The position numbers and the translations under genes were made by a program. DNA of 64,000 bases from Caenorhabditis remanei (Eukaryota > Nematoda > Chromadorea > Rhabditida > Rhabditidae), in contig NC_071330.1 in NCBI RefSeq assembly GCF_010183535.1, positions 13,373,717 to 13,437,716 of the forward strand. The letters are read 5' to 3'. Shown one piece after another: positions 17,861 through 62,040 of the stretch; the stretch's first letter is position 1; each line of letters opens with the position of its first letter. The notes under the pieces were generated by a model. That model ran no database searches. It was not told where the DNA came from and worked only from the letters and a program-made list of their open reading frames with translations.

Positions 17861-17866
17861 CTTATT
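17861..17866. repeat. Left target-site duplication CTTATT
   Basis: Six bases immediately outside the left palindrome end are identical and in the same orientation to 36,741-36,746. The chance of a given 6-mer match is about 1 in 4096, and the length is that known for Mavericks. Confidence 0.7.
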
Positions 17867-17884
17867 AGTAGTGTTCGGTCCCAA

Positions 17885-18085
17885 GATTCTCCACCACCAT
17901 GAGTCATCATGAGATAAGATCTCCGAAAATGGAGGGATACACCGTGTCGGAGATAAGATCTATGGAGGGATACCCCGTAGCGGAGATTACAATCTCCGCG
18001 GTTATGATATGTTATGATATGTTATGATTAGTTATGATAATTCATTATGATTATTAATTATGATTATTAATTATGATTTTTTTGA
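17885..18085. repeat. Subterminal repeats of the left arm
   Basis: GAGATAAGATCTCCG / GGAGGGATAC / CGGAGATAAGATCT units occur twice, followed by TTATGATATG and ATTATGATTATTA runs. Related words on the other strand occur at 62,985-63,140, outside this element. Confidence 0.65.
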
Positions 18086-18351
18086 ATGAAATTTCAAATT
18101 TTTTCACAATTTATTAAAATTTTGCACATTTTTAGATTTTGGCTAGAAATTTCAGAAAAAGAAAACTTTTTACGACTCAGGAAAAAAGTTTTTGCATTTT
18201 TGAAATTTTCACTTCATAATGCTCATGGCCTAGAAATCCAATTGTTAGGCCGAGTGCAATTGTAGGTATAATGCCCAGGTAAGTTCCTTCCAGTCGGGGA
18301 TACTGTACATTATTGAAGAGACAGGAGAGACGACAGAGAAATGTACGAACG

Positions 18352-18569
18352 GGCACCGACACAAGATTTTTAAATTATTCTCGTGTAGGTGGTCGAGATT
18401 AAAATCTAACTCTTCACGTTGAAAAAAAAAGACAAATCATTCAATGTCAAAAATCTGTTCGTGAGCCGACACAAGATTTTAAATGTTTCTTGTGTCGGAG
18501 GTCGAGATTAAAATCTAACTCTTCACGTTGAAAAAAAAAGACAAATCATTCAATGTCAAAAAAAAAGAC
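18352..18569. repeat. Two-unit direct repeat (about 110 bp) in the left arm
   Basis: CCGACACAAGATTTT, then GTCGAGATTAAAATCTAACT, CTTCACGTTG, an A-run and GACAAATCATTCAATGTC occur twice in tandem. The A-runs are where three of the arm-to-arm length differences fall or lie close by. Confidence 0.75.
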
Positions 18570-18609
18570 TGTTCGTGACCATGAAAATCTTTATTGCAAA
18601 AAAACTTAT

Positions 18610-19154
18610 TCAATCCAAAATTCTTGCATATCCTCTATTGAGGTCCACACATCGATTACACATTTTAAGAATCATTCGACCTTCTTCAAACGTCCAGACC
18701 AGCTTTCCAGCACAACACTTCATCACAGCTACATCCAGTTTCCCTTTTGACTTGTCAAGAACTCTGAGTGGGGCATCTGAAATATCAAGATGAATAAAAA
18801 CTTTGCATACAGAAAACAAGTACCGTCAAAGCTAATTTCTCCAAATTGTTCTCGCGAAACCTTCTTTGGTTTTGTTGCACGAGTTCTCGAGACGGGAACT
18901 TTCTTGACAGGCGTTTCCAAGAGTTGTTTTCTACTCTTGAAGAGCTTCTTTATCATTGACACTGCAAAAGACAATAATTTTAAAGCAACTGGCGAATCGT
19001 TCTTACCTGAATCTTTTTGCGAGTCTGGAATCGATTCTCCGTCATGTTCAGAAACAAATTGGCTTGATGGAGGGGAATATTGGTCGAGAGGAAGCGGAAT
19101 TTGCAAAGGCTGAACCGTCGGGAAAACAGTAGGACTTGGGTTCAGGAAATCCAT
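18610..19154 (-). CDS. Unknown protein of the palindromic element, left copy
   Basis: Mirror of 35,454-35,998. Three exons join in frame (mirrored borders 19154-19007, 18961-18824, 18776-18610). Identical at every place compared to the right copy, apart from a homopolymer in the 3' flank. Confidence 0.6.
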
Positions 19155-19482
19155 GAGAGCAATAAAAACAGTCACCGGTTTGTATCGAGGAAAAAAAGCA
19201 AGAATGAAGCTTTTCATAACTTTACAGGAAACAATGCTGACGTCAGAAAGTGGGCGGAGCCAAAAGTGTATAAAAAATCTAATACACCAAAAATATAACT
19301 TTTTGCTGTATGCAGAATAATATGAATTCTCTGAGATCAATTAGAACCTATTCTGCGCATACAATGTGTACAAAGCCGTCAAGAAGATTCATATTTGAAT
19401 TTCGAACGGACATGTCAAACAGCACCTCATTTATAATTCATTGTGAATAAAGTTCTCGTTATAAAAAATTTATTCTTTCACT

Positions 19483-19578
19483 ATGGAAACACTCAATCAG
19501 CACATGCGACAAGTGAGGAAGCAGATTCAAATGAGAAAACATACAAAGAGTGCTGTATTTGAGCACATCTACTCATAG
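19483..19578 (+). CDS. Small basic ORF, 31 codons, left copy
   Basis: An ATG preceded by TTATAAAAAATTTATTC starts a short frame (METLNQHMRQVRKQ...) ending TAG. The TATA-type context is the only support. It could be noise or a first exon. Confidence 0.25.
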   Translation: METLNQHMRQVRKQIQMRKHTKSAVFEHIYS

Positions 19579-19770
19579 ATCTACTTTTTTGTCCGGTGAC
19601 GTTTTTCTCTATCAATTAACAATTTCATCTGATTGTCATACACATGTACATGTCCTCCACTTGTTTTATTCTTTCAATACTTGCTTTGACCCCATTGCGG
19701 TTTTCAATGTAGATGGTCTTCATTCGGTATAGTGGTCTGCAATATTGTAAACGGTTACTCTAGAGATTGT

Positions 19771-20618
19771 CTACTCATACTTTATGGGAATCTTACACTC
19801 GCAATCTTCATACACTGACATACCAGCCAAAAGTTTTTGCCATCGTAGACTGACGTAAAACTCTATTCTACGTAATTTGTCAAAGCAACCATCATACCAT
19901 CTTCTCAAGAACTGATTCATATCTTCATTGGAGATTACCCCATACAGATGTATGTTGGCACAATTCATATCCAGTAAATTCCTCAATGTTCCTGGTATGA
20001 TGATTTCATCCAAATCAAACACCCTCTCATAAACCAACTCGTCTAGAGTGTCCAAGTCTACAGATAATGCTTTTGAGACTTGAACACTCACCAAAAATCG
20101 AGTCACACTGAAACTTTTGACAGGATTCTTCAAAGAGATTGAACATTTCTCAACGAATATGTTGGATAACCATTTGGTAACGTATTCAACTTCTTCTTGT
20201 TTTTCAAGATTAAGACTCAGTCTACCAATACTTTGGATAGAGCACAAATCCATCAATTGGTTTGCAATTTCAAATCCATCAAACAGAACGTTATTCGACC
20301 AGCGACAAAGACTGTTCTTTCTAGATCTTTAGTTCATTGCACCAACGCTTATGATACCCTTTACTTCTGGACACGCGTTGCGGTAAATGGTTATATCGAA
20401 TTCATTATCGCTATCAAACTCTATTGACAACGAGTATTGTCGTCTTATTGCACTTTTGACATAGCCTGATGCTTTCTTTGAGCAAAATGATAATGCGACC
20501 CTGCAAAAACATCAAGTTTTTTCTGCTAAAAAATACAAACTTACATGTCATGTGGACTCATCTGCAGAAGAATATTTTTCAACACGAGGTATGGGAAGCA
20601 CAAAAGTGGGAGAGGCAT
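19771..20618 (-). pseudogene. F-box / FBA_2 protein with one in-frame stop, left copy
   Basis: Mirror of 33,990-34,837. The premature TAA lies at 20,329-20,331 on the minus strand, the same position as in the right copy, so the lesion predates the arm duplication or was homogenised. Confidence 0.7.
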
Positions 20619-22060
20619 CGCAATGGTGTAAGATGTTGAACTCCACATAAAAAATCAAAGTCACAGACGTAAATGTGTTGTAGAACTGCTAAATGGCTAA
20701 AAATATATCTTTAACATCAGAGGCATATGGAAGCTGACAGTATCATACCGTTCGTTTGAATTATTTGAATAAATGTTTCACCTATCTCAGATCAGATCTA
20801 TAGATATCCTGGCGCCCTCATTAGTGCACAAAAGAACGCTACGCACATGTCAATGATTGACACCTCCCTTCTCCCCCCTCAGGGACAATTAGGTCATTTA
20901 AAAGGAGGCTAATATGCGAAATCTTCATTTTTCCGTCAAGAAACTAGAAATGGAACCCGTTCCAAACAACTTTTTCTTTAAGATGTCGAACTCCACATAA
21001 AAAATCAAAGTCACAGATGAGTTGTGGAAATGGTAAATGACTGAAAATATAACTTTTACTTGAATCAGACGTTGTCAAGGAATAACAAATGTTGATCTAA
21101 AACTGTCATAGAACAAAAGTGAAGTACTATGAAATAGTAATGTTGCAAGTCTCTAAAAACAGCACATTCATATTCCTTTACCCCTAACTCTAGCAACACT
21201 CCAACACCACCGACCGGTAAATGAGTTGCCGCGGTGAGCGGTGACGAATGTTCGGTCTACCTAAACGGTGGTGAGTAAAACGAACCCCTTGCAAAGACTG
21301 TTCCATACTATTCTTTCTACAGAACAAGGACAGTTTTATGTTAAAAAAAATGGGTATCTGAATAGATACCTATAATAATCCTAAATGAAACCACACTCAA
21401 TGCGTTCAAATCAATTTCATTACTCCTTTCTTTTCCACTTTTTGTTATATTGCCAGAATAATTCCACCTTTTAAAAAATTATTTGAATACTGTTTTCACA
21501 TATCTCTGATCGCATCTATAGATACCCCTCATTACAGGCGCCCTCCTAAGTGCGCACAAAGAAAGCGCTACGCACATGTCAGTGATTTATGACATTTTCT
21601 CCACTAGGTTTTTTTTTCAGATGAATATTATTGAATCAACAAACTTTTCCGAGAAAAAACAAAGATATTCCCAGTGGATAGAATGTTGAAGCGACATCTC
21701 CAGATTATACGTCATCACATGTGAAAAGCTTACCAAATTATAAGTGTAAAAAATATACAACAAAAACTTTGGATGGTACCTTCTTCATAGTTCGCAACGT
21801 GGAATTGACACATATGGATGAGGAGAAGCAACACTTGATGGATAAAATAAAAACAAATGTGGAAGATGACGGAGAGACGCGAGAAGGGGAGCATGAGGAA
21901 AGAGAAACGCATGACAAATTTTCAAATTGCGCGCTGTCAATGTTTCCGCACCGGTTTTTCTTCTTCTCTCTCGTTTCCACACCGGTTTTCTTCTTCTCGA
22001 CAAGGCGGAGCTTGGAAGCACAATAAATAAGACACAACAAGGAGGCGATTTCTTCATTCT
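20619..22060. other. Left-arm stretch without a supported gene
   Basis: Contains two related copies of GGCGCCCTC...GCTACGCACATGTCA (about 20,810 and 21,535), a repeated TAAGATGTTGAACTCCACAT / AAAAAATCAAAGTCACAGA unit (20,628 and 20,980), and one 127-bp-family repeat. An open frame at 21721-22026 contains FFIVRNVELTHMDEEKQHLM but lacks an ATG context and family signature. The mirrored stretch is 32,548-33,989. Confidence 0.5.
21183..21288 (+). repeat. 127-bp-family repeat, left copy 1 (diverged)
   Basis: Core ACCGACCGGTAAATGAGTTG, then CCGCGGTGAGCGGTGACGAA and GGTGAGTAAAACGAACCCC. It differs at several positions from the other copies. Confidence 0.8.
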
Positions 22061-22168
22061 AAGAAACACTACTGAATGCGTTTCGCCCGATTATGTATGA
22101 TTATTTTTGAATTCTAATTTTATGTTTTTTTTTGCACTGGCGGTTTCGAACAATGGAGGTTGGAGGTT
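22060..22168 (+). promoter_or_regulatory. Promoter/first-exon cassette, copy H (left arm)
   Basis: Reads ACTACTGAATGCG, GATTATTTTTGAATTCTAAT and ends TTGGAG with the donor GTTAGT. The next acceptor (TATTTCAG at 22,415) leads two bases later into the ATG of the gene at 22,418. That arrangement supports its role as an untranslated first exon. Mirror: 32,440-32,548. Confidence 0.6.
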
Positions 22169-22417
22169 AGTTCTGGATCAGTTCCATTAAAAGAATAACA
22201 ATATTTTACTAGACTTCAAAAAAAAACTTTTTCATGTTAGTAATAATGGACAAAGTAAATCCCGTAAAAAATATTTCATATAGGTGCACTCAGTTGCAAG
22301 AGTTTGGTGCACAATATCTCAATCTCATACTAAAGACTGGAATTAAAGCAATTTCTTTTTCTGCGCTTCAAGTCTTTCAAGTTCACTGTTATTCCAACTA
22401 AGACCTTTATTTCAGAC

Positions 22418-23199
22418 ATGTCCTCCTCTCAAAAGCTGTTCAATCACGTTCCAACTACCACCTTCGTCAAAACCGAGGATTCTGTCGATTCTGAGAATTT
22501 CCCAGTCAGGGCGATTCCATACACCAGAGAAGAGCTCTTTTCTCGGATGGAGTTCAGATGAAATCCCCGAGTTCCAAGGGTCATCGTCACCAATCAAATC
22601 AAAGAGGAGTCTCAAAACTCATTCGATGCCTTTGCGCCAAATGAGTTGTTGGATTCAGCTCCTGAAGTCACCCCAGCCATCGATGGACATCAAGAAGACC
22701 TCTTCAACTCAGAATTGGTAGAAAGAACACTTGAAATGTTCATGGATGCTGCGAGCAGAGGACAAACTCTCAATTTGGTATATTATTTTTTCTTTTTCAT
22801 TAATTTTTTGACAAGACCAATTTATTGCTGAACACTCTCACTGATTTTTTCATTTAGACACTTTCAGTTTCTATCATTCAGTACTTGTTTTTTTGTTTTG
22901 CAACTGTCAATTGATAAGTATCACTATCATTGAGTCATCCCTCCCCATATAATATTATTAAGAATAAGTGAATACACCATAATATTCATTCAATTTTACA
23001 ACTTTAGCTATCAATAATTCATTTTTCAGAATCCGGATCCAGAAGAAGTCTTGACTGATGAGGACCTGTAGGAGGAAGATGCCTCAGCCAGGATACCGAT
23101 CCGGATTATTATCCAGATACGCAAGAGCAGCGAGACCGTCCATCAGACTTCAGAATCCCACGTTCCGCCTCACGTGACCCACTCGATTTGGACTATTAA
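22418..23199 (+). pseudogene. Broken two-exon gene of the element, left copy
   Basis: Exon 1 (22418-22777) begins MSSSQKLFNHVPTTTF after a perfect acceptor. It has an in-frame TGA at 22,559-22,561, yet stays open and protein-like afterwards (VIVTNQIKEESQNSF, LVERTLEMFMDAASRG). Exon 2 (from 23030) continues NPDPEEVLTDEDL and meets a TAG at 23,069-23,071. A frame change near there then gives an acidic tail ending DPLDLDY at 23,199. Three lesions make it a pseudogene. No family recognised. All lesions are shared by the right copy. Confidence 0.55.
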
Positions 23200-23606
23200 A
23201 AAATATTGAAATTTATAATTAAAATACATTCTGTATGTTTATAAATTTAATTTGAAAAACGATCTTATTTGCATCACTTCACCAGATTCTAACTAGCAAT
23301 AAATTATTGTGAAAAGCAACAACTGTTAATTTTCTCACTGTTGAATTTTTAAAATTCATCCAAGACATTTCCACTTCTTCAGCCTACAATCCGCAGTGTA
23401 CACCGGGAGAGGTCCGAATATTCATATTCGGAGGCATTTGCTACTAGAGAATGGAAATGTAGTTCCCATCTGGTTTGGATTCCTTCTTGGCTTGTCATTT
23501 TTTGGTTTGTCATTGACTTCTTTCTCCTTCACATGACTAATTGCGCTTTCGTGTTGTGATTGAAAACATTGATTGTGCAACAACGAGAGCGATCGAAATG
23601 TTCTAA

Positions 23607-24060
23607 TTGGACAAAACACAGAGAAAATATTGCAAAATAATGATAAAAGCGTATGGCAAGAGAAGAATTCAAAAAAAAAAGGAAAACGAGAACGATCCAC
23701 GAATTCAACTCTACACTGCTCTGGAAAGAATTGCATCTGACCGTCTCATTTATTGTGGTAACGTGTATTTTTATAAAAAGCGAGAAAATGAACATCTTTC
23801 AGACACGGATTCTGTTATATTCCGTCAGGACAGAGGAACAGATTTACTCGGAGATTTGAAAGGAGAAAGTCTCAGAATGATGACCAACGAGATTGCATCG
23901 GGTTGTGAATTGGTAAAAGTGGTCACGATAGCATCAAAAGTATATGGAACACTGGGTAGAAGAACTGCCACAGGAGAAGAAGACTATTTCGTCAAGGCAA
24001 AAGGGGTGACTCTAAACTCGGAAACGGCCAAAAAAGTGAATTTTGATATGGTCCCCTTTC
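23607..24060 (+). pseudogene. Type-B (protein-primed) DNA polymerase fragment, left copy
   Basis: LYTALERIASDRLIYC is followed by a 45-bp intron (23758-23802). The next exon brings the polymerase metal-binding DTDS motif, then LLGDLKGE, MMTNEIASG and, further on, AKGVTLNSETAKKVNFD. That order is known for the palm and following segment of Maverick/Polinton and related viral-type B polymerases. Only about 150 residues are present; the exonuclease domain, the other palm motifs and the C-terminus were not found. Alone it cannot be an active polymerase. It identifies the class of the surrounding element. Confidence 0.7.
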
Positions 24061-24244
24061 ATACAGTCTTGTACGTTGGCAAGTTTCATTCTCTTTGTTC
24101 TCAAGCACGAGCAAGCAGATAGGGCAGAGCAACAGAAAGAGAAAGTAGCCTCTGTTTTTTTTTTTACCGAAAATCACGCTGCCCCTTTTCCATCTTTTTC
24201 AAATCTTCTCCTATGGGCATGCATAAATAAAGAAGAGAAGAGGT

Positions 24245-24961
24245 CTACTGGCAGGGTTGAAAGAAGACGAAAACCGGAAGAATACGTGCAACAGAAAGTA
24301 AAAAAAGTAAATTTATTGCTTCAATGTTTTGAGATGCATGAATAATAAAGGAGAAGTTAAAACAAATGAGAAAAAAAAAACAAGAATGAACATTGAAGTT
24401 CGATGTGAAGCCAGGGTACGATTGCATCAAATCCACAATCGGCATGTCATCCGGATGGAACAGTGTGGACTTCACTGAAATTAATTAATAAGATTAATTA
24501 TGCGAATACTACAACTCACTTTCGGTGACCATATAAAAACTTGGCTCTTTGTTTGTTCCCTGGAGACTTTTGACACCTTTTGATGCACCCAGAGCAGAGT
24601 AACGGCATCCATGGTCATAAGAAACCATCTTCAAACTAAAAAAATTGAAATTATATTTTCATCTGGATAAAAGCAAGGTTACTTGATTCCCGAAGTATCG
24701 AGCAGGTAGTGGACACAGTTTCCAACGGTGATAACATTCTTGCTGAAAAACAAAATATAATGTTAGTACAGTTTGTTATGAACGTACTTCGAATATGCTG
24801 GTCCACTGAGCAAAAAACAGATAACAAGCAGAAGCAGAGAATAAAATATAATATAAAGGAATTATTAGAATTTCAAAATAATCAGAAAAAGGGTTTTGAC
24901 GACCGCTCACATAGTCATCTTGGCACACATATCATCTTCAGCTTTCGAACGGAAGACATTT
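24245..24961 (-). CDS. Unknown five-exon gene of the element, left copy
   Basis: Mirror of 29,647-30,363, same exon structure on the minus strand. Confidence 0.5.
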
Positions 24962-25144
24962 CTGAAATTAAAGATGTTCGTTGAATCGACATTGAATTTG
25001 AAAGAGTTCTATGCGCAGAAAAGAAGTGATAATCAGAGACAAAAACATAGATTCCGAGTGTCCGAAAGAATAAATGTGCAGCTGTTCTAAAAGAAAATTA
25101 ATGCATTTACCCAATCAGCCAAAAACTCGACTTGCAGGTAGAAG

Positions 25145-25270
25145 AAAAAAACGTTACCTACTTTACTAACCCTAAAACATCCCAACACCACCGACCGGTA
25201 AATGAGTTGCCGCGGTGAGCGGTGACGAATGTCCGGTCTACCTTAACTGTGGTGAGTAAAACGAACCCCC
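25145..25270 (+). repeat. 127-bp-family repeat, left copy 2
   Basis: Starts AAAAAACGTTACCTACTTTA and ends AACGAACCCCC. It is inverted relative to 27,001-27,127, so the two bound a 2-kb segment like terminal inverted repeats. Confidence 0.85.
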
Positions 25271-27000
25271 CTTGCCGATATCATACACATTCTCAATGAC
25301 TGGTAGCGAGTTAGGTCAACTATGTGAGCTCACTAGAGGAAAACACTCGTAGAGGAAACATTAGAAAAAAGAGCGGTCAGTCAATTTATGGCACATGTTA
25401 GCTACCGTGACACGGGTTTTTTTTTGTCTGAACAGGAAAAAAAAACAGTTCATGATTTCCGTTGTCTAAAAAAAGAATACATCGAGATGGGTAAAACACT
25501 GAGACTTTTTAGAAATCTGTGCTATCAAAACTGTTACTCACCTTCAAAAAACAATTAGAAATAATCCAAGAATTCAAAAATAATCAATAATATAGTACAT
25601 CGTCTCGACTCCTATTCAAAAAGAAGTCTGAATAATTATTTTTTGCACTCTAAAAAACAGAAGAATTAACCAACTCACCTAAGAATATTCCTCAATGCAA
25701 GAAGAATGAATGAGAAGATGAGCGGATGGTAGGATTGTCCAGTCTCCGTGTTCTCTGTTGTATCACGACGTTCCCGCCCACTCTCACTTTTTTTTTCACA
25801 TATTGAAAATGTGTTCGATACATGTGGATGAGTATACGTCTCGTGTTCTCTGGGTCTCTCCAACTCTCTACTCTATACATCTATCAGTTCAAAGTGACTG
25901 TACATGTCTGTATCAAAATGAATGTTTAACATGTCGCTGACATCCAGATGCAAGACTGTATGGAAAAAAAACTTTCAATATTTATCACGCCGATACTGAT
26001 AATTTCACACTGTATATACTGCATAGACTACAAATCCCATCTTATACACGATTACGAGTATTAATAAATTTCTTTTCAAAAATTATTTTCTTCACTACAA
26101 ATAAAAATACAACTTTATAAAAAACTGTTAGTGTCTTAAATTCCAACTACGCACCCCCCACACCAAAAACAAAAACTTGGGATTACAACATAATCAGCTA
26201 GCGCAAACTATTTGCAATTCAATACACATTTCAATGTAATTCATTGCAAAATTCTGAACAACCTATAAACACCACAAAACTCGTATCATTTTCAAGAAAA
26301 ATCATGACACGGCCCCTCATTTTAAACAAACCACCCCATTTTCAGACACCACGTATGTATTTTGTGCAATCCCATCAAATTTATAAGCTACCATACGTAT
26401 AGTTTGTGGTACGTTCAGAACATAACTGTTAAGTTTGTCATTTGTATCTAACAAGTTATAAGCTACATCTGAATGCCCGGGAACACCATTTTTTTTTCAC
26501 GACACAAACTTTTATTGTTCAACCATGTTCATAACCCCAGTCAAAGTGTCTTTTTTTGCGGGAATTCACACATGGTCTCCCATTTTGATCTTCGCCAACC
26601 CGGGGGTCGGCATGTTTTATCGGAAAATCTCCGCGCCTCACATCAATGGACTTCTTTTCGATTCCTCTCTTGACTAATTTTTTTGTTCCCTGACACTACA
26701 CTTTGCAAAACATTCTTATAACGACGATTGTATTTTTTCATAAGTTTTTTTCGATTTGCTCTCAAGTACATTTCAAGTCACTTTTTAGGACTGATTAAAG
26801 TAATGAAATGTTTTCTCGAGTAATGATTTGACTTCAGAGTTGTAAAAAATCTTTACCATCATCACTAAAAAATATTGACTGATGGATATCCTTTCCTCAA
26901 ACACTTGAGACAATGTCAACGTAACATCCTTTACTTTTTGTGTCAGTAAGGGTACGACTTCTCAATGCTATGTCTTCGTGTTTTAATATTTGTGCAGGGA
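25271..27000. other. Left-arm stretch bounded by inverted 127-bp repeats, no gene seen
   Basis: About 1.7 kb containing cassette I, CT-rich sequence and AT-rich sequence. Frames up to 66 codons occur but show no splice-supported extension or domain. The mirror is 27,608-29,337. Confidence 0.5.
25541..25608 (-). promoter_or_regulatory. Promoter/first-exon cassette, copy I (left arm)
   Basis: Mirror of 29,000-29,067. Confidence 0.5.
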
Positions 27001-27127
27001 GGGTTCGTTTTACTCACCACAGTTAAGGTAGACCGGACATTCGTCACCGCTCACCGCGGCAACTCATTTACCGGTCGGTGGTGTTGGGATGTTTCAGGGT
27101 TAGTAAAGTAGGTAACGTTTTTTTCTT
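27001..27127 (-). repeat. 127-bp-family repeat, left copy 3
   Basis: Inverted relative to copy 2. It starts GGGTTCGTTTTACTCACC and lies 75 bases from the palindrome spacer. Confidence 0.85.
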
Positions 27128-27202
27128 TCTTTCTTTTTTTAACACTTGTTAGGATAAAAAATCACAGTAATCAATGTTTATTGTTAATTATTAATAAGTC
27201 GT

Positions 27203-27405
27203 AAAGCGAATATAGATAGGTGACATAGAATGCGAACATTCGTTTATTCCTCACACAGTTAGCTCCCCCCACATACTGAAATGTTAGTATTATAATGTTT
27301 ATTGGATTTTTCAGTATAAGTCTAGAAATTATTGAAAATAGACATCAATTTGATATAAGTACATGTGTATACTTCTTGATTATGTTTTTGATCTAATTAC
27401 TTTTC
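27203..27405. other. Unique 203-bp spacer at the palindrome centre
   Basis: Complementarity stops at 27,202/27,406. The spacer is AT-rich and single-copy in the window, with no open frame of note. It is bordered on each side by TTAATAAT-type sequence and, about 75 bases further out, by inverted copies of a 127-bp repeat. Confidence 0.85.
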
Positions 27406-27480
27406 ACGACTTATTAATAATTAACAATAAACATTGATTACTGTGATTTTTTATCCTAACAAGTGTTAAAAAAAGAAAGA

Positions 27481-27607
27481 AAGAAAAAAACGTTACCTAC
27501 TTTACTAACCCTGAAACATCCCAACACCACCGACCGGTAAATGAGTTGCCGCGGTGAGCGGTGACGAATGTCCGGTCTACCTTAACTGTGGTGAGTAAAA
27601 CGAACCC
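27481..27607 (+). repeat. 127-bp-family repeat, right copy 3
   Basis: Mirror of 27,001-27,127. Together they form an inverted pair framing the central spacer. Confidence 0.85.
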
Positions 27608-28999
27608 TCCCTGCACAAATATTAAAACACGAAGACATAGCATTGAGAAGTCGTACCCTTACTGACACAAAAAGTAAAGGATGTTACGTTGACATTGTCT
27701 CAAGTGTTTGAGGAAAGGATATCCATCAGTCAATATTTTTTAGTGATGATGGTAAAGATTTTTTACAACTCTGAAGTCAAATCATTACTCGAGAAAACAT
27801 TTCATTACTTTAATCAGTCCTAAAAAGTGACTTGAAATGTACTTGAGAGCAAATCGAAAAAAACTTATGAAAAAATACAATCGTCGTTATAAGAATGTTT
27901 TGCAAAGTGTAGTGTCAGGGAACAAAAAAATTAGTCAAGAGAGGAATCGAAAAGAAGTCCATTGATGTGAGGCGCGGAGATTTTCCGATAAAACATGCCG
28001 ACCCCCGGGTTGGCGAAGATCAAAATGGGAGACCATGTGTGAATTCCCGCAAAAAAAGACACTTTGACTGGGGTTATGAACATGGTTGAACAATAAAAGT
28101 TTGTGTCGTGAAAAAAAAATGGTGTTCCCGGGCATTCAGATGTAGCTTATAACTTGTTAGATACAAATGACAAACTTAACAGTTATGTTCTGAACGTACC
28201 ACAAACTATACGTATGGTAGCTTATAAATTTGATGGGATTGCACAAAATACATACGTGGTGTCTGAAAATGGGGTGGTTTGTTTAAAATGAGGGGCCGTG
28301 TCATGATTTTTCTTGAAAATGATACGAGTTTTGTGGTGTTTATAGGTTGTTCAGAATTTTGCAATGAATTACATTGAAATGTGTATTGAATTGCAAATAG
28401 TTTGCGCTAGCTGATTATGTTGTAATCCCAAGTTTTTGTTTTTGGTGTGGGGGGTGCGTAGTTGGAATTTAAGACACTAACAGTTTTTTATAAAGTTGTA
28501 TTTTTATTTGTAGTGAAGAAAATAATTTTTGAAAAGAAATTTATTAATACTCGTAATCGTGTATAAGATGGGATTTGTAGTCTATGCAGTATATACAGTG
28601 TGAAATTATCAGTATCGGCGTGATAAATATTGAAAGTTTTTTTTCCATACAGTCTTGCATCTGGATGTCAGCGACATGTTAAACATTCATTTTGATACAG
28701 ACATGTACAGTCACTTTGAACTGATAGATGTATAGAGTAGAGAGTTGGAGAGACCCAGAGAACACGAGACGTATACTCATCCACATGTATCGAACACATT
28801 TTCAATATGTGAAAAAAAAAGTGAGAGTGGGCGGGAACGTCGTGATACAACAGAGAACACGGAGACTGGACAATCCTACCATCCGCTCATCTTCTCATTC
28901 ATTCTTCTTGCATTGAGGAATATTCTTAGGTGAGTTGGTTAATTCTTCTGTTTTTTAGAGTGCAAAAAATAATTATTCAGACTTCTTTTTGAATAGGAG

Positions 29000-29067
29000 T
29001 CGAGACGATGTACTATATTATTGATTATTTTTGAATTCTTGGATTATTTCTAATTGTTTTTTGAAGG
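29000..29067 (+). promoter_or_regulatory. Promoter/first-exon cassette, copy I (right arm)
   Basis: Reads GAATAGGAGTCGAGACGATG, TGATTATTTTTGAATTCTTG, TTCTAATTG and ends TTTTTTGAAG with the donor GTGAGTAAC. A weaker copy, TGATTATTTTGAAATTCTAA, lies at 29,724. Confidence 0.5.
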
Positions 29068-29337
29068 TGAGTAACAGTTTTGATAGCACAGATTTCTAAA
29101 AAGTCTCAGTGTTTTACCCATCTCGATGTATTCTTTTTTTAGACAACGGAAATCATGAACTGTTTTTTTTTCCTGTTCAGACAAAAAAAAACCCGTGTCA
29201 CGGTAGCTAACATGTGCCATAAATTGACTGACCGCTCTTTTTTCTAATGTTTCCTCTACGAGTGTTTTCCTCTAGTGAGCTCACATAGTTGACCTAACTC
29301 GCTACCAGTCATTGAGAATGTGTATGATATCGGCAAG

Positions 29338-29463
29338 GGGGGTTCGTTTTACTCACCACAGTTAAGGTAGACCGGACATTCGTCACCGCTCACCGCGGCA
29401 ACTCATTTACCGGTCGGTGGTGTTGGGATGTTTTAGGGTTAGTAAAGTAGGTAACGTTTTTTT
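29338..29463 (-). repeat. 127-bp-family repeat, right copy 2
   Basis: Mirror of 25,145-25,270. Confidence 0.85.
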
Positions 29464-29646
29464 CTTCTACCTGCAAGTCGAGTTTTTGGCTGATTGGGTA
29501 AATGCATTAATTTTCTTTTAGAACAGCTGCACATTTATTCTTTCGGACACTCGGAATCTATGTTTTTGTCTCTGATTATCACTTCTTTTCTGCGCATAGA
29601 ACTCTTTCAAATTCAATGTCGATTCAACGAACATCTTTAATTTCAG

Positions 29647-30363
29647 AAATGTCTTCCGTTCGAAAGCTGAAGATGATATGTGTGCCAAGATGACTATGTG
29701 AGCGGTCGTCAAAACCCTTTTTCTGATTATTTTGAAATTCTAATAATTCCTTTATATTATATTTTATTCTCTGCTTCTGCTTGTTATCTGTTTTTTGCTC
29801 AGTGGACCAGCATATTCGAAGTACGTTCATAACAAACTGTACTAACATTATATTTTGTTTTTCAGCAAGAATGTTATCACCGTTGGAAACTGTGTCCACT
29901 ACCTGCTCGATACTTCGGGAATCAAGTAACCTTGCTTTTATCCAGATGAAAATATAATTTCAATTTTTTTAGTTTGAAGATGGTTTCTTATGACCATGGA
30001 TGCCGTTACTCTGCTCTGGGTGCATCAAAAGGTGTCAAAAGTCTCCAGGGAACAAACAAAGAGCCAAGTTTTTATATGGTCACCGAAAGTGAGTTGTAGT
30101 ATTCGCATAATTAATCTTATTAATTAATTTCAGTGAAGTCCACACTGTTCCATCCGGATGACATGCCGATTGTGGATTTGATGCAATCGTACCCTGGCTT
30201 CACATCGAACTTCAATGTTCATTCTTGTTTTTTTTTTCTCATTTGTTTTAACTTCTCCTTTATTATTCATGCATCTCAAAACATTGAAGCAATAAATTTA
30301 CTTTTTTTACTTTCTGTTGCACGTATTCTTCCGGTTTTCGTCTTCTTTCAACCCTGCCAGTAG
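29647..30363 (+). CDS. Unknown five-exon gene of the element, right copy
   Basis: Exons 29647-29697, 29803-29820, 29866-29925, 29973-30088 and 30134 onward join in one frame through introns in changing phases, with no stop. Recognisable stretches are VFRSKAEDDMCAKM, NVITVGNCVHYLLDTSG, MVSYDHGCRYSALGASKG and STLFHPDDMPIVDLMQSYPG. The preserved phase over five exons argues for a real gene. The 18-base second exon is unusually small. The final 45 residues (after NVHS) are Phe/Leu-rich and probably not coding, and the true start was not found. Cassette copy I lies upstream at 29,000-29,067. No family recognised; it could be a structural or cargo protein. Confidence 0.5.
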
Positions 30364-30547
30364 ACCTCTTCTCTTCTTTATTTATGCATGCCCATAGGAG
30401 AAGATTTGAAAAAGATGGAAAAGGGGCAGCGTGATTTTCGGTTAAAAAAAAAACAGAGGCTACTTTCTCTTTCTGTTGCTCTGCCCTATCTGCTTGCTCG
30501 TGCTTGAGAACAAAGAGAATGAAACTTGCCAACGTACAAGACTGTAT

Positions 30548-31001
30548 GAAAGGGGACCATATCAAAATTCACTTTTTTGGCCGTTTCCGAGTTTAGAGTC
30601 ACCCCTTTTGCCTTGACGAAATAGTCTTCTTCTCCTGTGGCAGTTCTTCTACCCAGTGTTCCATATACTTTTGATGCTATCGTGACCACTTTTACCAATT
30701 CACAACCCGATGCAATCTCGTTGGTCATCATTCTGAGACTTTCTCCTTTCAAATCTCCGAGTAAATCTGTTCCTCTGTCCTGACGGAATATAACAGAATC
30801 CGTGTCTGAAAGATGTTCATTTTCTCGCTTTTTATAAAAATACACGTTACCACAATAAATGAGACGGTCAGATGCAATTCTTTCCAGAGCAGTGTAGAGT
30901 TGAATTCGTGGATCGTTCTCGTTTTCCTTTTTTTTTTGAATTCTTCTCTTGCCATACGCTTTTATCATTATTTTGCAATATTTTCTCTGTGTTTTGTCCA
31001 A
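30548..31001 (-). pseudogene. Type-B (protein-primed) DNA polymerase fragment, right copy
   Basis: Mirror of the left copy. The only arm difference found in this neighbourhood is a T/A change at 30,443, just outside the homologous part. Confidence 0.7.
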
Positions 31002-31408
31002 TTAGAACATTTCGATCGCTCTCGTTGTTGCACAATCAATGTTTTCAATCACAACACGAAAGCGCAATTAGTCATGTGAAGGAGAAAGAAGTCAATGACA
31101 AACCAAAAAATGACAAGCCAAGAAGGAATCCAAACCAGATGGGAACTACATTTCCATTCTCTAGTAGCAAATGCCTCCGAATATGAATATTCGGACCTCT
31201 CCCGGTGTACACTGCGGATTGTAGGCTGAAGAAGTGGAAATGTCTTGGATGAATTTTAAAAATTCAACAGTGAGAAAATTAACAGTTGTTGCTTTTCACA
31301 ATAATTTATTGCTAGTTAGAATCTGGTGAAGTGATGCAAATAAGATCGTTTTTCAAATTAAATTTATAAACATACAGAATGTATTTTAATTATAAATTTC
31401 AATATTTT

Positions 31409-32190
31409 TTAATAGTCCAAATCGAGTGGGTCACGTGAGGCGGAACGTGGGATTCTGAAGTCTGATGGACGGTCTCGCTGCTCTTGCGTATCTGGATAAT
31501 AATCCGGATCGGTATCCTGGCTGAGGCATCTTCCTCCTACAGGTCCTCATCAGTCAAGACTTCTTCTGGATCCGGATTCTGAAAAATGAATTATTGATAG
31601 CTAAAGTTGTAAAATTGAATGAATATTATGGTGTATTCACTTATTCTTAATAATATTATATGGGGAGGGATGACTCAATGATAGTGATACTTATCAATTG
31701 ACAGTTGCAAAACAAAAAAACAAGTACTGAATGATAGAAACTGAAAGTGTCTAAATGAAAAAATCAGTGAGAGTGTTCAGCAATAAATTGGTCTTGTCAA
31801 AAAATTAATGAAAAAGAAAAAATAATATACCAAATTGAGAGTTTGTCCTCTGCTCGCAGCATCCATGAACATTTCAAGTGTTCTTTCTACCAATTCTGAG
31901 TTGAAGAGGTCTTCTTGATGTCCATCGATGGCTGGGGTGACTTCAGGAGCTGAATCCAACAACTCATTTGGCGCAAAGGCATCGAATGAGTTTTGAGACT
32001 CCTCTTTGATTTGATTGGTGACGATGACCCTTGGAACTCGGGGATTTCATCTGAACTCCATCCGAGAAAAGAGCTCTTCTCTGGTGTATGGAATCGCCCT
32101 GACTGGGAAATTCTCAGAATCGACAGAATCCTCGGTTTTGACGAAGGTGGTAGTTGGAACGTGATTGAACAGCTTTTGAGAGGAGGACAT
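31409..32190 (-). pseudogene. Broken two-exon gene of the element, right copy
   Basis: Mirror of 22,418-23,199 with the same in-frame stops (32,047-32,049 and 31,537-31,539). Confidence 0.55.
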
Positions 32191-32439
32191 GTCTGAAATA
32201 AAGGTCTTAGTTGGAATAACAGTGAACTTGAAAGACTTGAAGCGCAGAAAAAGAAATTGCTTTAATTCCAGTCTTTAGTATGAGATTGAGATATTGTGCA
32301 CCAAACTCTTGCAACTGAGTGCACCTATATGAAATATTTTTTACGGGATTTACTTTGTCCATTATTACTAACATGAAAAAGTTTTTTTTTGAAGTCTAGT
32401 AAAATATTGTTATTCTTTTAATGGAACTGATCCAGAACT

Positions 32440-32548
32440 AACCTCCAACCTCCATTGTTCGAAACCGCCAGTGCAAAAAAAAACATAAAATTAGAATTCA
32501 AAAATAATCATACATAATCGGGCGAAACGCATTCAGTAGTGTTTCTTA
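32440..32548 (-). promoter_or_regulatory. Promoter/first-exon cassette, copy H (right arm)
   Basis: Mirror of 22,060-22,168, upstream of the broken gene 31,409-32,190. Confidence 0.6.
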
Positions 32549-33319
32549 GAATGAAGAAATCGCCTCCTTGTTGTGTCTTATTTATTGTGCTTCCAAGCTC
32601 CGCCTTGTCGAGAAGAAGAAAACCGGTGTGGAAACGAGAGAGAAGAAGAAAAACCGGTGCGGAAACATTGACAGCGCGCAATTTGAAAATTTGTCATGCG
32701 TTTCTCTTTCCTCATGCTCCCCTTCTCGCGTCTCTCCGTCATCTTCCACATTTGTTTTTATTTTATCCATCAAGTGTTGCTTCTCCTCATCCATATGTGT
32801 CAATTCCACGTTGCGAACTATGAAGAAGGTACCATCCAAAGTTTTTGTTGTATATTTTTTACACTTATAATTTGGTAAGCTTTTCACATGTGATGACGTA
32901 TAATCTGGAGATGTCGCTTCAACATTCTATCCACTGGGAATATCTTTGTTTTTTCTCGGAAAAGTTTGTTGATTCAATAATATTCATCTGAAAAAAAAAC
33001 CTAGTGGAGAAAATGTCATAAATCACTGACATGTGCGTAGCGCTTTCTTTGTGCGCACTTAGGAGGGCGCCTGTAATGAGGGGTATCTATAGATGCGATC
33101 AGAGATATGTGAAAACAGTATTCAAATAATTTTTTAAAAGGTGGAATTATTCTGGCAATATAACAAAAAGTGGAAAAGAAAGGAGTAATGAAATTGATTT
33201 GAACGCATTGAGTGTGGTTTCATTTAGGATTATTATAGGTATCTATTCAGATACCCATTTTTTTTAACATAAAACTGTCCTTGTTCTGTAGAAAGAATAG
33301 TATGGAACAGTCTTTGCAA

Positions 33320-33425
33320 GGGGTTCGTTTTACTCACCACCGTTTAGGTAGACCGAACATTCGTCACCGCTCACCGCGGCAACTCATTTACCGGTCGGTG
33401 GTGTTGGAGTGTTGCTAGAGTTAGG
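33320..33425 (-). repeat. 127-bp-family repeat, right copy 1
   Basis: Mirror of 21,183-21,288. Confidence 0.8.
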
Positions 33426-33989
33426 GGTAAAGGAATATGAATGTGCTGTTTTTAGAGACTTGCAACATTACTATTTCATAGTACTTCACTTTTGTTCTAT
33501 GACAGTTTTAGATCAACATTTGTTATTCCTTGACAACGTCTGATTCAAGTAAAAGTTATATTTTCAGTCATTTACCATTTCCACAACTCATCTGTGACTT
33601 TGATTTTTTATGTGGAGTTCGACATCTTAAAGAAAAAGTTGTTTGGAACGGGTTCCATTTCTAGTTTCTTGACGGAAAAATGAAGATTTCGCATATTAGC
33701 CTCCTTTTAAATGACCTAATTGTCCCTGAGGGGGGAGAAGGGAGGTGTCAATCATTGACATGTGCGTAGCGTTCTTTTGTGCACTAATGAGGGCGCCAGG
33801 ATATCTATAGATCTGATCTGAGATAGGTGAAACATTTATTCAAATAATTCAAACGAACGGTATGATACTGTCAGCTTCCATATGCCTCTGATGTTAAAGA
33901 TATATTTTTAGCCATTTAGCAGTTCTACAACACATTTACGTCTGTGACTTTGATTTTTTATGTGGAGTTCAACATCTTACACCATTGCG

Positions 33990-34837
33990 ATGCCTCTCCC
34001 ACTTTTGTGCTTCCCATACCTCGTGTTGAAAAATATTCTTCTGCAGATGAGTCCACATGACATGTAAGTTTGTATTTTTTAGCAGAAAAAACTTGATGTT
34101 TTTGCAGGGTCGCATTATCATTTTGCTCAAAGAAAGCATCAGGCTATGTCAAAAGTGCAATAAGACGACAATACTCGTTGTCAATAGAGTTTGATAGCGA
34201 TAATGAATTCGATATAACCATTTACCGCAACGCGTGTCCAGAAGTAAAGGGTATCATAAGCGTTGGTGCAATGAACTAAAGATCTAGAAAGAACAGTCTT
34301 TGTCGCTGGTCGAATAACGTTCTGTTTGATGGATTTGAAATTGCAAACCAATTGATGGATTTGTGCTCTATCCAAAGTATTGGTAGACTGAGTCTTAATC
34401 TTGAAAAACAAGAAGAAGTTGAATACGTTACCAAATGGTTATCCAACATATTCGTTGAGAAATGTTCAATCTCTTTGAAGAATCCTGTCAAAAGTTTCAG
34501 TGTGACTCGATTTTTGGTGAGTGTTCAAGTCTCAAAAGCATTATCTGTAGACTTGGACACTCTAGACGAGTTGGTTTATGAGAGGGTGTTTGATTTGGAT
34601 GAAATCATCATACCAGGAACATTGAGGAATTTACTGGATATGAATTGTGCCAACATACATCTGTATGGGGTAATCTCCAATGAAGATATGAATCAGTTCT
34701 TGAGAAGATGGTATGATGGTTGCTTTGACAAATTACGTAGAATAGAGTTTTACGTCAGTCTACGATGGCAAAAACTTTTGGCTGGTATGTCAGTGTATGA
34801 AGATTGCGAGTGTAAGATTCCCATAAAGTATGAGTAG
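33990..34837 (+). pseudogene. F-box / FBA_2 protein with one in-frame stop, right copy
   Basis: Exon 1 (33990-34063) reads MPLPLLCFPYLVLKNILLQM and exon 2 continues VALSFCSKKASGYVKS, a typical Caenorhabditis F-box (LPyLVlk.iL.qM.p.dLv.LSlCSkkA). The rest of exon 2 (34108-34837) carries an FBA_2-like region with LDMNCANIHLYG and MNQFLRRWYDG. One TAA at 34,277-34,279 interrupts an otherwise continuous frame; the downstream frame stays open for 186 codons. Family members bind Skp1-type adaptors to deliver substrates to ubiquitin ligases. Being host-like, it is probably cargo picked up by the element. A sequencing error at the stop is unlikely because both arms share it. Confidence 0.75.
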
Positions 34838-35029
34838 ACAATCTCTAGAGTAACCGTTTACAATATTGCAGACCACTATACCGAATGAAGACCATCTACA
34901 TTGAAAACCGCAATGGGGTCAAAGCAAGTATTGAAAGAATAAAACAAGTGGAGGACATGTACATGTGTATGACAATCAGATGAAATTGTTAATTGATAGA
35001 GAAAAACGTCACCGGACAAAAAAGTAGAT

Positions 35030-35125
35030 CTATGAGTAGATGTGCTCAAATACAGCACTCTTTGTATGTTTTCTCATTTGAATCTGCTTCCTCACTTGTC
35101 GCATGTGCTGATTGAGTGTTTCCAT
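35030..35125 (-). CDS. Small basic ORF, 31 codons, right copy
   Basis: Mirror of 19,483-19,578, identical where compared. Support is equally weak. Confidence 0.25.
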   Translation of the reverse strand: METLNQHMRQVRKQIQMRKHTKSAVFEHIYS

Positions 35126-35453
35126 AGTGAAAGAATAAATTTTTTATAACGAGAACTTTATTCACAATGAATTATAAATGAGGTGCTGTTTGACATGTCC
35201 GTTCGAAATTCAAATATGAATCTTCTTGACGGCTTTGTACACATTGTATGCGCAGAATAGGTTCTAATTGATCTCAGAGAATTCATATTATTCTGCATAC
35301 AGCAAAAAGTTATATTTTTGGTGTATTAGATTTTTTATACACTTTTGGCTCCGCCCACTTTCTGACGTCAGCATTGTTTCCTGTAAAGTTATGAAAAGCT
35401 TCATTCTTGCTTTTTTTCCTCGATACAAACCGGTGACTGTTTTTATTGCTCTC

Positions 35454-35998
35454 ATGGATTTCCTGAACCCAAGTCCTACTGTTTTCCCGACGGTTCAGCC
35501 TTTGCAAATTCCGCTTCCTCTCGACCAATATTCCCCTCCATCAAGCCAATTTGTTTCTGAACATGACGGAGAATCGATTCCAGACTCGCAAAAAGATTCA
35601 GGTAAGAACGATTCGCCAGTTGCTTTAAAATTATTGTCTTTTGCAGTGTCAATGATAAAGAAGCTCTTCAAGAGTAGAAAACAACTCTTGGAAACGCCTG
35701 TCAAGAAAGTTCCCGTCTCGAGAACTCGTGCAACAAAACCAAAGAAGGTTTCGCGAGAACAATTTGGAGAAATTAGCTTTGACGGTACTTGTTTTCTGTA
35801 TGCAAAGTTTTTATTCATCTTGATATTTCAGATGCCCCACTCAGAGTTCTTGACAAGTCAAAAGGGAAACTGGATGTAGCTGTGATGAAGTGTTGTGCTG
35901 GAAAGCTGGTCTGGACGTTTGAAGAAGGTCGAATGATTCTTAAAATGTGTAATCGATGTGTGGACCTCAATAGAGGATATGCAAGAATTTTGGATTGA
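35454..35998 (+). CDS. Unknown protein of the palindromic element, right copy
   Basis: Exons 35454-35601, 35647-35784 and 35832-35998 join through phase-1 introns with GT/AG borders and end in a TGA, giving about 150 residues. An in-frame ATG at 35,391 could add 21 hydrophobic residues. The N-terminal part is Pro/Ser-rich, the middle is strongly basic (KKLFKSRKQ, RATKPKKVSR) and the C-terminal 55 residues look globular with cysteines (KCCAGKLVW, CNRCVDLNRGY). A TTTTTATACAC TATA-type box lies about 120 bases upstream. It is the outermost gene of the element and its frame is intact. The basic middle suggests nucleic-acid binding, which is only an inference. No family recognised. Confidence 0.6.
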
Positions 35999-36037
35999 AT
36001 AAGTTTTTTTTGCAATAAAGATTTTCATGGTCACGAA

Positions 36038-36255
36038 CAGTCTTTTTTTTTGACATTGAATGATTTGTCTTTTTTTTCAACGTGAAGAGTTAGATTTTAA
36101 TCTCGACCTCCGACACAAGAAACATTTAAAATCTTGTGTCGGCTCACGAACAGATTTTTGACATTGAATGATTTGTCTTTTTTTTCAACGTGAAGAGTTA
36201 GATTTTAATCTCGACCACCTACACGAGAATAATTTAAAAATCTTGTGTCGGTGCC
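36038..36255. repeat. Two-unit direct repeat in the right arm
   Basis: Mirror of 18,352-18,569. Its T-runs are one base shorter at 36,070-36,077 and 36,178-36,185. Confidence 0.75.
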
Positions 36256-36521
36256 CGTTCGTACATTTCTCTGTCGTCTCTCCTGTCTCTTCAATAATGT
36301 ACAGTATCCCCGACTGGAAGGAACTTACCTGGGCATTATACCTACAATTGCACTCGGCCTAACAATTGGATTTCTAGGCCATGAGCATTATGAAGTGAAA
36401 ATTTCAAAAATGCAAAAACTTTTTTCCTGAGTCGTAAAAAGTTTTCTTTTTCTGAAATTTCTAGCCAAAATCTAAAAATGTGCAAAATTTTAATAAATTG
36501 TGAAAAAATTTGAAATTTCAT

Positions 36522-36722
36522 TCAAAAAAATCATAATTAATAATCATAATTAATAATCATAATGAATTATCATAACTAATCATAACATATCATAACATAT
36601 CATAACCGCGGAGATTGTAATCTCCGCTACGGGGTATCCCTCCATAGATCTTATCTCCGACACGGTGTATCCCTCCATTTTCGGAGATCTTATCTCATGA
36701 TGACTCATGGTGGTGGAGAATC
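36522..36722. repeat. Subterminal repeats of the right arm
   Basis: Mirror copy of 17,885-18,085, with AGATCTTATCTCCGACACGG and TCATAACATATCATAAC words. Confidence 0.65.
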
Positions 36723-36740
36723 TTGGGACCGAACACTACT

Positions 36741-36746
36741 CTTATT
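36741..36746. repeat. Right target-site duplication CTTATT
   Basis: Immediately follows the right terminus ...ACACTACT and matches the left duplication exactly. Confidence 0.7.
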
Positions 36747-61479: not shown

Positions 61480-62040
61480 GAACAGGAAAATCTTTTTTCA
61501 TTAAAACTTTTGAAACTCTAACCCCACAAATCTCACAGCCAATGCTCTAGAAGCAAAGCCTGTCTACAAGTTTTGTCGCTGGACCCCCGGTATAGGACGG
61601 CTTCAAATACGAGTATGACCCAAACTTGGAAATAGTCATCGCTGACGAGGTTGGGTGCATGAATGCCCATATCCTCGAAGTATCCAAGATGACTCACCGT
61701 TCGGAGGATGTTCAGTTATTTTGGTGGGAGACTTTCTCCAATTTCCCGCAATCGAAGAAATGAATAGCGAGACTGAAGAAAGGGAAACGTTTCAATTGTA
61801 CAATGGTAATTCAAAATGTAATTTTTTTTCCAAAGATTATCATTGTACTATTTTGCAGCAAAAGATGATCTGATCTACCTTAAAAGTCAAACAATATGTC
61901 CTGAAATCGCACTCAAATACATTCGTTGGCTAGAGCACCTTGATCCCGATTTGAAGCCTGTGAGAAGGAGAAGAAAAGATCAAAGTGCAAGGACACGAAT
62001 ACTACGTGTTTAAACAACGTGATATTCTTGAGGTATTGAG
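61480..62040 (+). pseudogene. PIF1/Helitron-type helicase fragment
   Basis: GTGKSFFIKTF (Walker A) follows the acceptor directly; then, after a stop, LEIVIADEVGCMNAHILE (Walker B, DE). After a frame change FGGCSVILVGDFLQFPAIEE appears, the signature third motif of PIF1-like helicases. DDLIYLKSQTICPEIALKYI follows after a short intron. Stops and frame changes separate the motifs, so it is dead. Such helicases occur as host PIF1 and in Helitrons; no Rep domain was seen. Confidence 0.65.

Follow-up and report, generated by a model that had tools for sequence, protein, structure and literature searches.

Mavericks/Polintons generate a 6-bp target-site duplication upon insertion and carry terminal inverted repeats that start with 5'-AG. 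Foldback and other long-TIR transposons have a short spacer flanked by long inverted arms, and the symmetric defective genomes of adenovirus Ad12 (SYREC), which are linear and protein-primed, carry a second, inverted copy of one end across the centre. The stretch of 64,000 nucleotides of Caenorhabditis remanei DNA analysed here (the window) harbours a non-autonomous palindromic Maverick (Polinton) derivative in which two inverted polymerase-side halves are joined inside the integrase gene. Like a Maverick/Polinton this element has a 6-bp duplication, AG... termini and remnants of PolB and integrase, but it has neither an intact integrase nor matches to ATPase, protease or capsid genes, and its terminal inverted repeats make up the entire element, one Maverick half being present twice. 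The layout of long inverted arms and short spacer is shared with the Foldback-type elements, but each arm here is a Maverick half that ends in a Maverick terminus. As in SYREC, one end of a linear protein-primed genome is doubled in inverted form; SYREC, however, is virion DNA, whereas the Maverick palindromes are integrated in the nematode genome. Long inverted repeats of Caenorhabditis stay alike, and the authors of their description favour selection on structure over gene conversion (PMC1803023). Their arms are near-identical and evolve jointly, as in the window element, but they are inverted paralogous gene pairs, and neither the abstract nor the Discussion of that paper presents them as transposons.

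Structure and gene content of the window element

The element spans positions 17867-36740 (18,874 bp) and is a near-perfect palindrome with the following features:

17861-17866: left target-site duplication, CTTATT
17867-27202, + strand: left arm, 9,336 bp, terminus 5'-AGTAGTG
18732-19220, - strand: ORF without Pfam match, present again in the right arm; its amino acid sequence is 97% identical to that of an ORF which complete element C carries close to its PolB-side end
19771-20328, - strand: ORF with an F-box-associated (FBA_2) domain, E 2.2e-9; second copy in the right arm
23698-24131, + strand: PolB fragments, rearranged and decayed; mirror image at 30477-30910 of the right arm
26440-26958, - strand: Maverick rve integrase remnant interrupted by several stops, adjoining the centre; mirrored at 27650-28168
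27203-27404: central spacer, 202 bp
27405-36740, - strand: right arm, 9,336 bp, mirroring the left arm
36741-36746: right target-site duplication, CTTATT

Between the arms there is one substitution (24165/30443), and indels of a single A occur at three places, near 18422, 18531 and 18597; given the length of the arms, chance likeness is not an issue. An earlier note, made from the sequence alone, had described a near-perfect palindrome with arms of about 9.34 kb, AGTAGTG termini and CTTATT repeated outside both ends, all of which is borne out. Its spacer of 203 bp is 202 bp by our measurement, and its span of 17861-36746 covers the palindrome together with the duplications.

When we compared 1 kb outside either end no similarity was found; the flanks are thus not mirror images, which argues against a host segmental inverted duplication as well as against two separate head-to-head insertions. 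Complete elements do occur as an inverted pair on C40, 86 kb apart, but the window shows only two outer termini with one pair of duplications outside them, and neither inner termini nor inner duplications were seen at the centre of the element. We therefore regard either origin as extremely improbable.

The AGTAGTG terminus is common to complete Mavericks of the same genome, with which the element shares 94-95% identity over its terminal 600 bp, supporting the Maverick derivation proposed earlier. The complete Mavericks sharing these ends encode PolB, rve integrase, an A32-type ATPase, an adenovirus-type protease and a capsid protein with the major capsid fold. Element C (18,955 bp, duplication GCCATT) contains PIF1, PolB, rve, A32, Peptidase_C5 and the capsid fold; complete element D is flanked by GACGTT. 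Similarity to element C also identified the polymerase fragment that the earlier note had placed in each arm, whereas no Pfam match was found for the 171-aa ORF at 23607-24119 taken alone. The protein-primed type B polymerase is thus represented by rearranged fragments and the rve integrase by the central remnant with stops, and the capsid, ATPase and protease genes of element C gave no tblastn match to the window arm at E 1e-4. The asymmetric gene order that Mavericks/Polintons show between their terminal repeats is absent. As its integrase exists only as a remnant with stops, we class the element as a non-autonomous derivative and not as a complete Maverick.

A sister palindrome and movement in palindromic form

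The earlier note had proposed a search for copies with the same termini and different duplications, and such a copy was found on C5. The arms of this sister palindrome are 99.5% identical to those of the window element, its 6-bp duplication is CACTGG, and its flanks are unrelated to those of the window element. The centre (26950-27410 of the window) is identical at 461 of 461 positions in the sister and 88-94% identical in the palindrome at C2:16.88M. The same centre in combination with a different duplication and unrelated flanks indicates insertion as a palindrome for one of these elements at least; to this extent the proposal that the element moved as an inverted dimer is supported. Judging from these sequences, Maverick palindromes very probably move in palindromic form.

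Among the variable gap-free sites of the window element and its sister, 20 of 24 are common to both arms of one element. The integrase is cut at the centre, where its residues are 115-320 in the window element, 115-281 in the sister and 322-360 in the palindrome at C4:3.92M. The spacers of window element and sister have opposite orientations in contig coordinates, but a flip of the spacer was dropped from consideration since a symmetric element has no orientation.

Related palindromes in C. remanei

The window element belongs to a recurrent class of palindromes in C. remanei. Among the listed PolB matches of about 100 bits or more (150 of 287 candidates scored, extra pieces of entered loci omitted), inward-facing inverted Maverick PolB pairs were present at 19 or more further loci and outward-facing pairs at none, the pairs of one family not being independent of each other. 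A 20th inward pair (C4:24.29M) was excluded because it lies next to element B only by chance. Among the matches listed (integrase from 185 bits up, minus C1:12717174 with 250 bits and C6:10050976 with 191 bits; 26 of 27 capsid-ORF matches), neither an intact integrase nor a capsid ORF lies within 15 kb of any of the 19 pairs, and at least 13 of the 45 unpaired PolB loci have both an integrase and a capsid ORF and at least four an integrase only. The two integrase matches set aside lie near no listed PolB pair. Of the weaker integrase matches listed, only the two central remnants at C4:3.92M are found this close to one of the 19 pairs (15 kb or less). Duplicated capsid-side halves would escape a search with PolB as query, and four partial capsid-ORF matches with alternating strands lie at C6:3.69-3.71M; for both reasons we gave up the general rule that it is always the polymerase side that is doubled.

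The ends of 10 of the 19 pairs were checked: seven have matching duplications (GATGAC, AACAAT, ATCGGA, TGAGAT, CTCCAT, GTCATT and AAAGAC), two do not, and one, C2:16.88M, has mirrored flanks (about 800 bp), on account of which it is not read as a transposed palindrome and was withdrawn from the duplication count. An assembly artefact, for example long reads folded via a missed adapter, might be suspected where one AGTAGAT copy adjoins a gap and another has a suspicious flank. At nine full-size loci, however, the palindrome is bounded by Maverick termini with matching 6-bp duplications, the flanks are unrelated between loci in the six of these nine that were compared (window element against sister; four AGTAGAT elements against each other), centre sequences recur and 19 of 19 PolB pairs face inwards, leaving an artefact with a negligible probability.

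Both ends were found for eight AGTAGAT palindromes (21.4-22.3 kb), their symmetry being judged from the ends and the paired polymerase matches. Matching duplications are absent in two of them: at C2:1.157M the left flank repeats the left flank of C4:23.72M, and at C4:5.187M the right end is damaged and adjoins Ns. The centre of one AGTAGAT element is mostly not self-complementary (49 positions tested), implying that AGTAGAT elements have spacers. The family is 69-74% identical to integrase-bearing loci. The PolB at C4:3.92M has about 50% amino acid identity to that of the AGTAGAT family, compared with 94-97% to that of four ordinary Maverick loci, and the C2:16.88M palindrome is 97% identical (DNA) to element C. 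These identity values, obtained with few queries, suggest three or more separate palindrome origins.

Unlike the window element, other palindromes contain open PolB exons. With a pN/pS of 0.02-0.10 in 11 of 12 comparisons and 0.28 in the remaining one, the PolB exons of one palindromic family look to be under selection. Palindromes are similar in length to their complete relatives (18,874 and 18,862 bp versus 18,955 and 18,751 bp; 22,344 bp versus 22,205 and 22,266 bp), a match that concerns two lineages, is confounded with a break in mid-element and does not extend to the C2:16.88M palindrome (16,277 bp).

Origin and meaning of the palindromes

Taken as a whole, the window element is probably best explained as a mobile non-autonomous palindromic half-Maverick that may have arisen by fold-back and been integrated in trans. 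As a linear Maverick copy undergoes protein-primed replication, the strand from the polymerase-side end would break or stall in the integrase region, snap back at inverted sequences and be extended into a hairpin, which the next replication round would copy around to give a linear inverted dimer. At its two ends this dimer would carry an identical origin and an identical integrase site. Polymerase-bearing families could replicate it with their own PolB, the window element with a helper's PolB, and integrase supplied in trans by an intact Maverick would insert it, creating the 6-bp duplication. For the fold-back step as the origin of the palindrome we consider the chances roughly even.

Alternatively, break-induced copying of the polymerase-side half within the chromosome may have overwritten the capsid-side half of an ordinary Maverick, with the palindrome being mobilised later. 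Such copying would end in the right terminal repeat, so that the duplication would be spared, and element B is a form of complete element C in which a window-type arm takes the place of the capsid-side end. The mirrored flanks at C2:16.88M and of a Maverick at C6:21.2M show tracts that extend beyond the element ends; within-chromosome conversion thus occurs and might create or maintain palindromes. The joint evolution of the arms (the 20 of 24 sites) agrees with this, and PMC1803023 offers gene conversion as one mechanism for the likeness of long inverted repeats in Caenorhabditis. That a centre recurs at several sites whose duplications differ, also in the AGTAGAT family, nevertheless demands later movement of the palindrome, an objection that does not reach the origin step or the single-copy element at C4:3.92M. 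On balance we consider conversion in place unlikely.

Returning to fold-back and integration in trans, palindromic derivatives that retain one end but no intact integrase or capsid genes have the expected look of satellite or defective genomes of such a linear replicon. Palindromic Mavericks might even be distinct self-perpetuating satellite replicons of the defective-interfering type, a suggestion we make tentatively and with some doubt: they would arise recurrently from the polymerase-side half, use their own PolB or that of a helper to replicate via a giant hairpin, be held near parental length by packaging and insert by means of a helper integrase, and the AGTAGAT family would have retained a polymerase under selection during its spread in palindromic form. 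No description of palindromic Mavericks was found among the matches listed for open-licence papers, which leaves the earlier note's claim of novelty uncontradicted, and the mobile palindromic state of this giant transposon class appears to be undescribed so far. With the palindromic derivatives, linear extrachromosomal copies, an integrase acting in trans and a possible size limit set by packaging become open to testing, and these derivatives indicate that near-perfect palindromes of 19-22 kb can reside and spread in an animal genome.

Structure and coding content of the palindromic element

The window was placed by genome search at C3:13373717-13437716 (C followed by a number denotes a contig of this genome). 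The element proper, W, occupies 17867-36740 of the window (18,874 bp) and consists of two 9,336-bp arms, distinguished by a single substitution and three 1-bp indels, and a 202-bp spacer, with CTTATT at both ends. Alignment of the arms and the end sequences thus bore out the palindrome with a CTTATT duplication that the earlier note had described at 17861-36746. Mavericks have AG ends and a 6-bp duplication, and the termini of W read AGTAGTG. The flanks, compared left against right over 1 kb outside each end, show no similarity, indicating that the palindrome boundary is exactly the element boundary.

Each arm carries near its end an ORF in common with the complete Maverick C (listed below) as well as an ORF that encodes an F-box-associated domain, FBA_2 (E 2.2e-9), and looks like a captured host-type gene; constraint on both is weak. 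The polymerase fragment noticed earlier in each arm was recovered as rearranged pieces of the type-B polymerase (PolB), and an integrase remnant with several stops adjoins the centre in each arm. A tblastn search of W with the PIF1, ATPase, protease and capsid genes of C gave no match, and W can only be non-autonomous. The FBA_2 ORF (19771-20328 and its mirror) is also present in relatives A, B and E and at C6:21.14M. Elsewhere in the window, 61901-62257 is a further PolB-like stretch with 72% DNA identity to the polymerase region of C, and host-type genes beside W match DUF3557, BTB and cytochrome P450 (43253-44122, 49590-50084 and 54473-57216).

Close relatives of the element

Matches to the first 2 kb of W occur at several places in the genome. 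The close relatives are:

C5:21368385-21387246, 18,862 bp: A, sister palindrome, duplications CACTGG
C4:24293135-24310790: B, recombinant Maverick, duplication ATTATC
C4:19300610-19319564, 18,955 bp: C, ordinary asymmetric element, duplication GCCATT
C1:13155413-13174163: D, ordinary asymmetric element, duplication GACGTT
C2:16880632-16896908, 16,277 bp: E, palindrome with a centre of W type

The search for other copies with a different 6-bp duplication succeeded with A, which carries CACTGG versus CTTATT in W; its arms are 99.4-99.5% identical to those of W, the centre is identical at 461/461 positions and the flanks are unrelated. Leaving out gapped columns, which include the single W substitution, the four arms of W and A have 24 variable sites. 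At 20 of these the two arms of each element agree and W differs from A; the remaining four are private to one arm of A.

Elements C and D have terminal repeats of about 600 bp and are 96-98% identical to each other in long aligned blocks. C encodes a PIF1 helicase (E 2e-18), PolB (7e-19), an rve integrase (7e-9), a Pox_A32 ATPase (3e-5) and a Peptidase_C5 (7e-5), and on its far side a 446-aa ORF without Pfam match, whose predicted fold (mean pLDDT 80) matches major capsid proteins of iridovirus, PBCV-1, mavirus and Sputnik in a viral library, with E down to 3e-15. C is a complete Maverick. B is 99.96-99.98% identical to C across 11.3 kb and has a W-type arm in place of the capsid-side end, demonstrating that palindromic and complete elements exchange sequence; no capsid-ORF match lies in B among the matches listed. 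Another PolB fragment is located ~0.7 kb outside its left end. In E, 2.6 kb are found in one arm only, and the flanks are mirrored too, over about 800 bp per side (the left side compared except for 200 bp).

Inward-facing polymerase pairs across the genome

The PolB of C matches many plus/minus pairs spaced a few to ten kilobases apart. Using PolB as query, fragment searches of the genome returned at least 85 loci; among the matches listed, pairs within 15 kb comprise at least 20 inward, no outward and at least four same-strand pairs, the inward counts being lower bounds in which pairs of one family are not independent. One inward pair, a chance neighbour of B, was dropped, leaving 19. Among the matches listed, neither a full integrase nor the capsid ORF lies within 15 kb of any of these 19, and of 45 PolB loci outside inward pairs 13 have integrase and capsid ORF and four integrase only. 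The 27 capsid-ORF matches listed have close opposite-strand neighbours only at C6:3.69-3.71M, where four partial matches (C6:3693506-3708140) alternate in strand and may represent the capsid-side half copied in inverted orientation. Same-strand PolB copies about 14-21 kb apart occur at C6:183-214 kb, C25 and C41. At C40:57-144 kb two inverted Mavericks with integrase and capsid ORF are separated by 86 kb and have the same PolB match score, which suggests a large inverted duplication.

Ends were examined in ten of the 19 pairs. Duplications match in seven and fail to match in two, and the flanks of the remaining one (E) are mirrored. Within the class, the AGTAGAT family, named after its termini, accounts for eight palindromes whose ends were both located by pattern search. 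In the first four looked at, all duplications match (GATGAC, AACAAT, ATCGGA, TGAGAT), and the terminal 730-1,161 bp are identical from arm to arm and about 2-21% divergent among elements. The other four add two matching duplications (CTCCAT, GTCATT); C2:1.157M and C4:5.187M, the latter adjoining Ns, lack a match, giving 6/8 in all. The inner symmetry of these elements is judged from equal-score paired polymerase matches, and in P1 (C5:8.37M) most of the 49 central positions tested lack self-complementarity. The sequence preceding the centre is similar in P1, P3 (C1:2.72M) and P7 (C4:23.73M) and different in P4 (C4:8.50M), the likeness of the first three indicating that at least some family members inherited the palindromic state and moved in that form. 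Two further palindromes are:

C3:3564195-3564513, 319 bp: mini-palindrome with AGTAGAT ends, GCTGCC on both sides
C4:3912266-3934609, 22,344 bp, 285-bp spacer: C4:3.92M palindrome, duplication AAAGAC

The arms of the latter have 5 mismatches over about 10.1 kb of alignment; its flanks contain mirror-related repetitive stretches beyond the duplication.

Origins, arm identity and mobility

Four ordinary Maverick loci share 94-97% identity with the PolB of the C4:3.92M palindrome, which is about 50% identical to that of the AGTAGAT family. AGTAGAT PolB is 69-74% identical to integrase-bearing loci and 71% to the C2:5.48M pair; for the palindromes C4:3.92M, E, C5:16.15M and C2:1.27M the value is 49-54%. 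The family includes an 86-88% subfamily that is likewise paired; E shares 97% DNA identity with element C. Judged from these sequences, the simplest count would be three independent palindrome origins, to which others may add. The way back from palindrome to ordinary element would require regaining the capsid half. The PolB exons of the AGTAGAT family look selected: comparisons among four copies gave a pN/pS of 0.02-0.10 in 11 cases out of 12 and 0.28 in the remaining case. For other ORFs of the family the values range from 0.13 to 1.05. The exon is open across its full 252 residues in 5/9 paired loci, and the match is divided between frames in 4/9.

The palindromes combine Maverick ends and duplication with one element half present as two inverted copies, the centre interrupts the integrase gene in both the C clade and the C4:3.92M clade, and the same palindrome is present at different sites. 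Such a structure could arise by fold-back during protein-primed replication, with the integrase presumably supplied by a helper. Packaging would be possible, hinted at by palindrome lengths close to those of complete relatives (18.86-18.87 versus 18.75-18.96 kb; 22.34 versus 22.21-22.27 kb). This match is, however, also expected as the consequence of a mid-element break, and E (16.28 kb) falls outside it.

Youth, gene conversion or replication that runs round the hairpin may account for the identity of the arms. Conversion-like tracts do occur, as shown by mirrored flanks at E, C6:21.2M and C4:2.75M (3/20 bases different in the last). The Maverick at C6:21207795-21230060 has flanks that are exact mirror images at 20/20 bases read and hence has no duplication; here a tract of conversion appears to have extended past the element. 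Long inverted repeats of Caenorhabditis are reported in PMC1803023 to keep their structure.

Maverick traits used for comparison, other than the AG ends and the 6-bp duplication, were taken from PMC8232201, PMC9683012 and PMC3671162. In searches of the open-access literature, none of the titles and abstract beginnings listed described a palindromic Maverick. W is real and has clear boundaries, it belongs to a class that recurs in this genome, and the palindromic Maverick appears to be a new form of a known transposon type.
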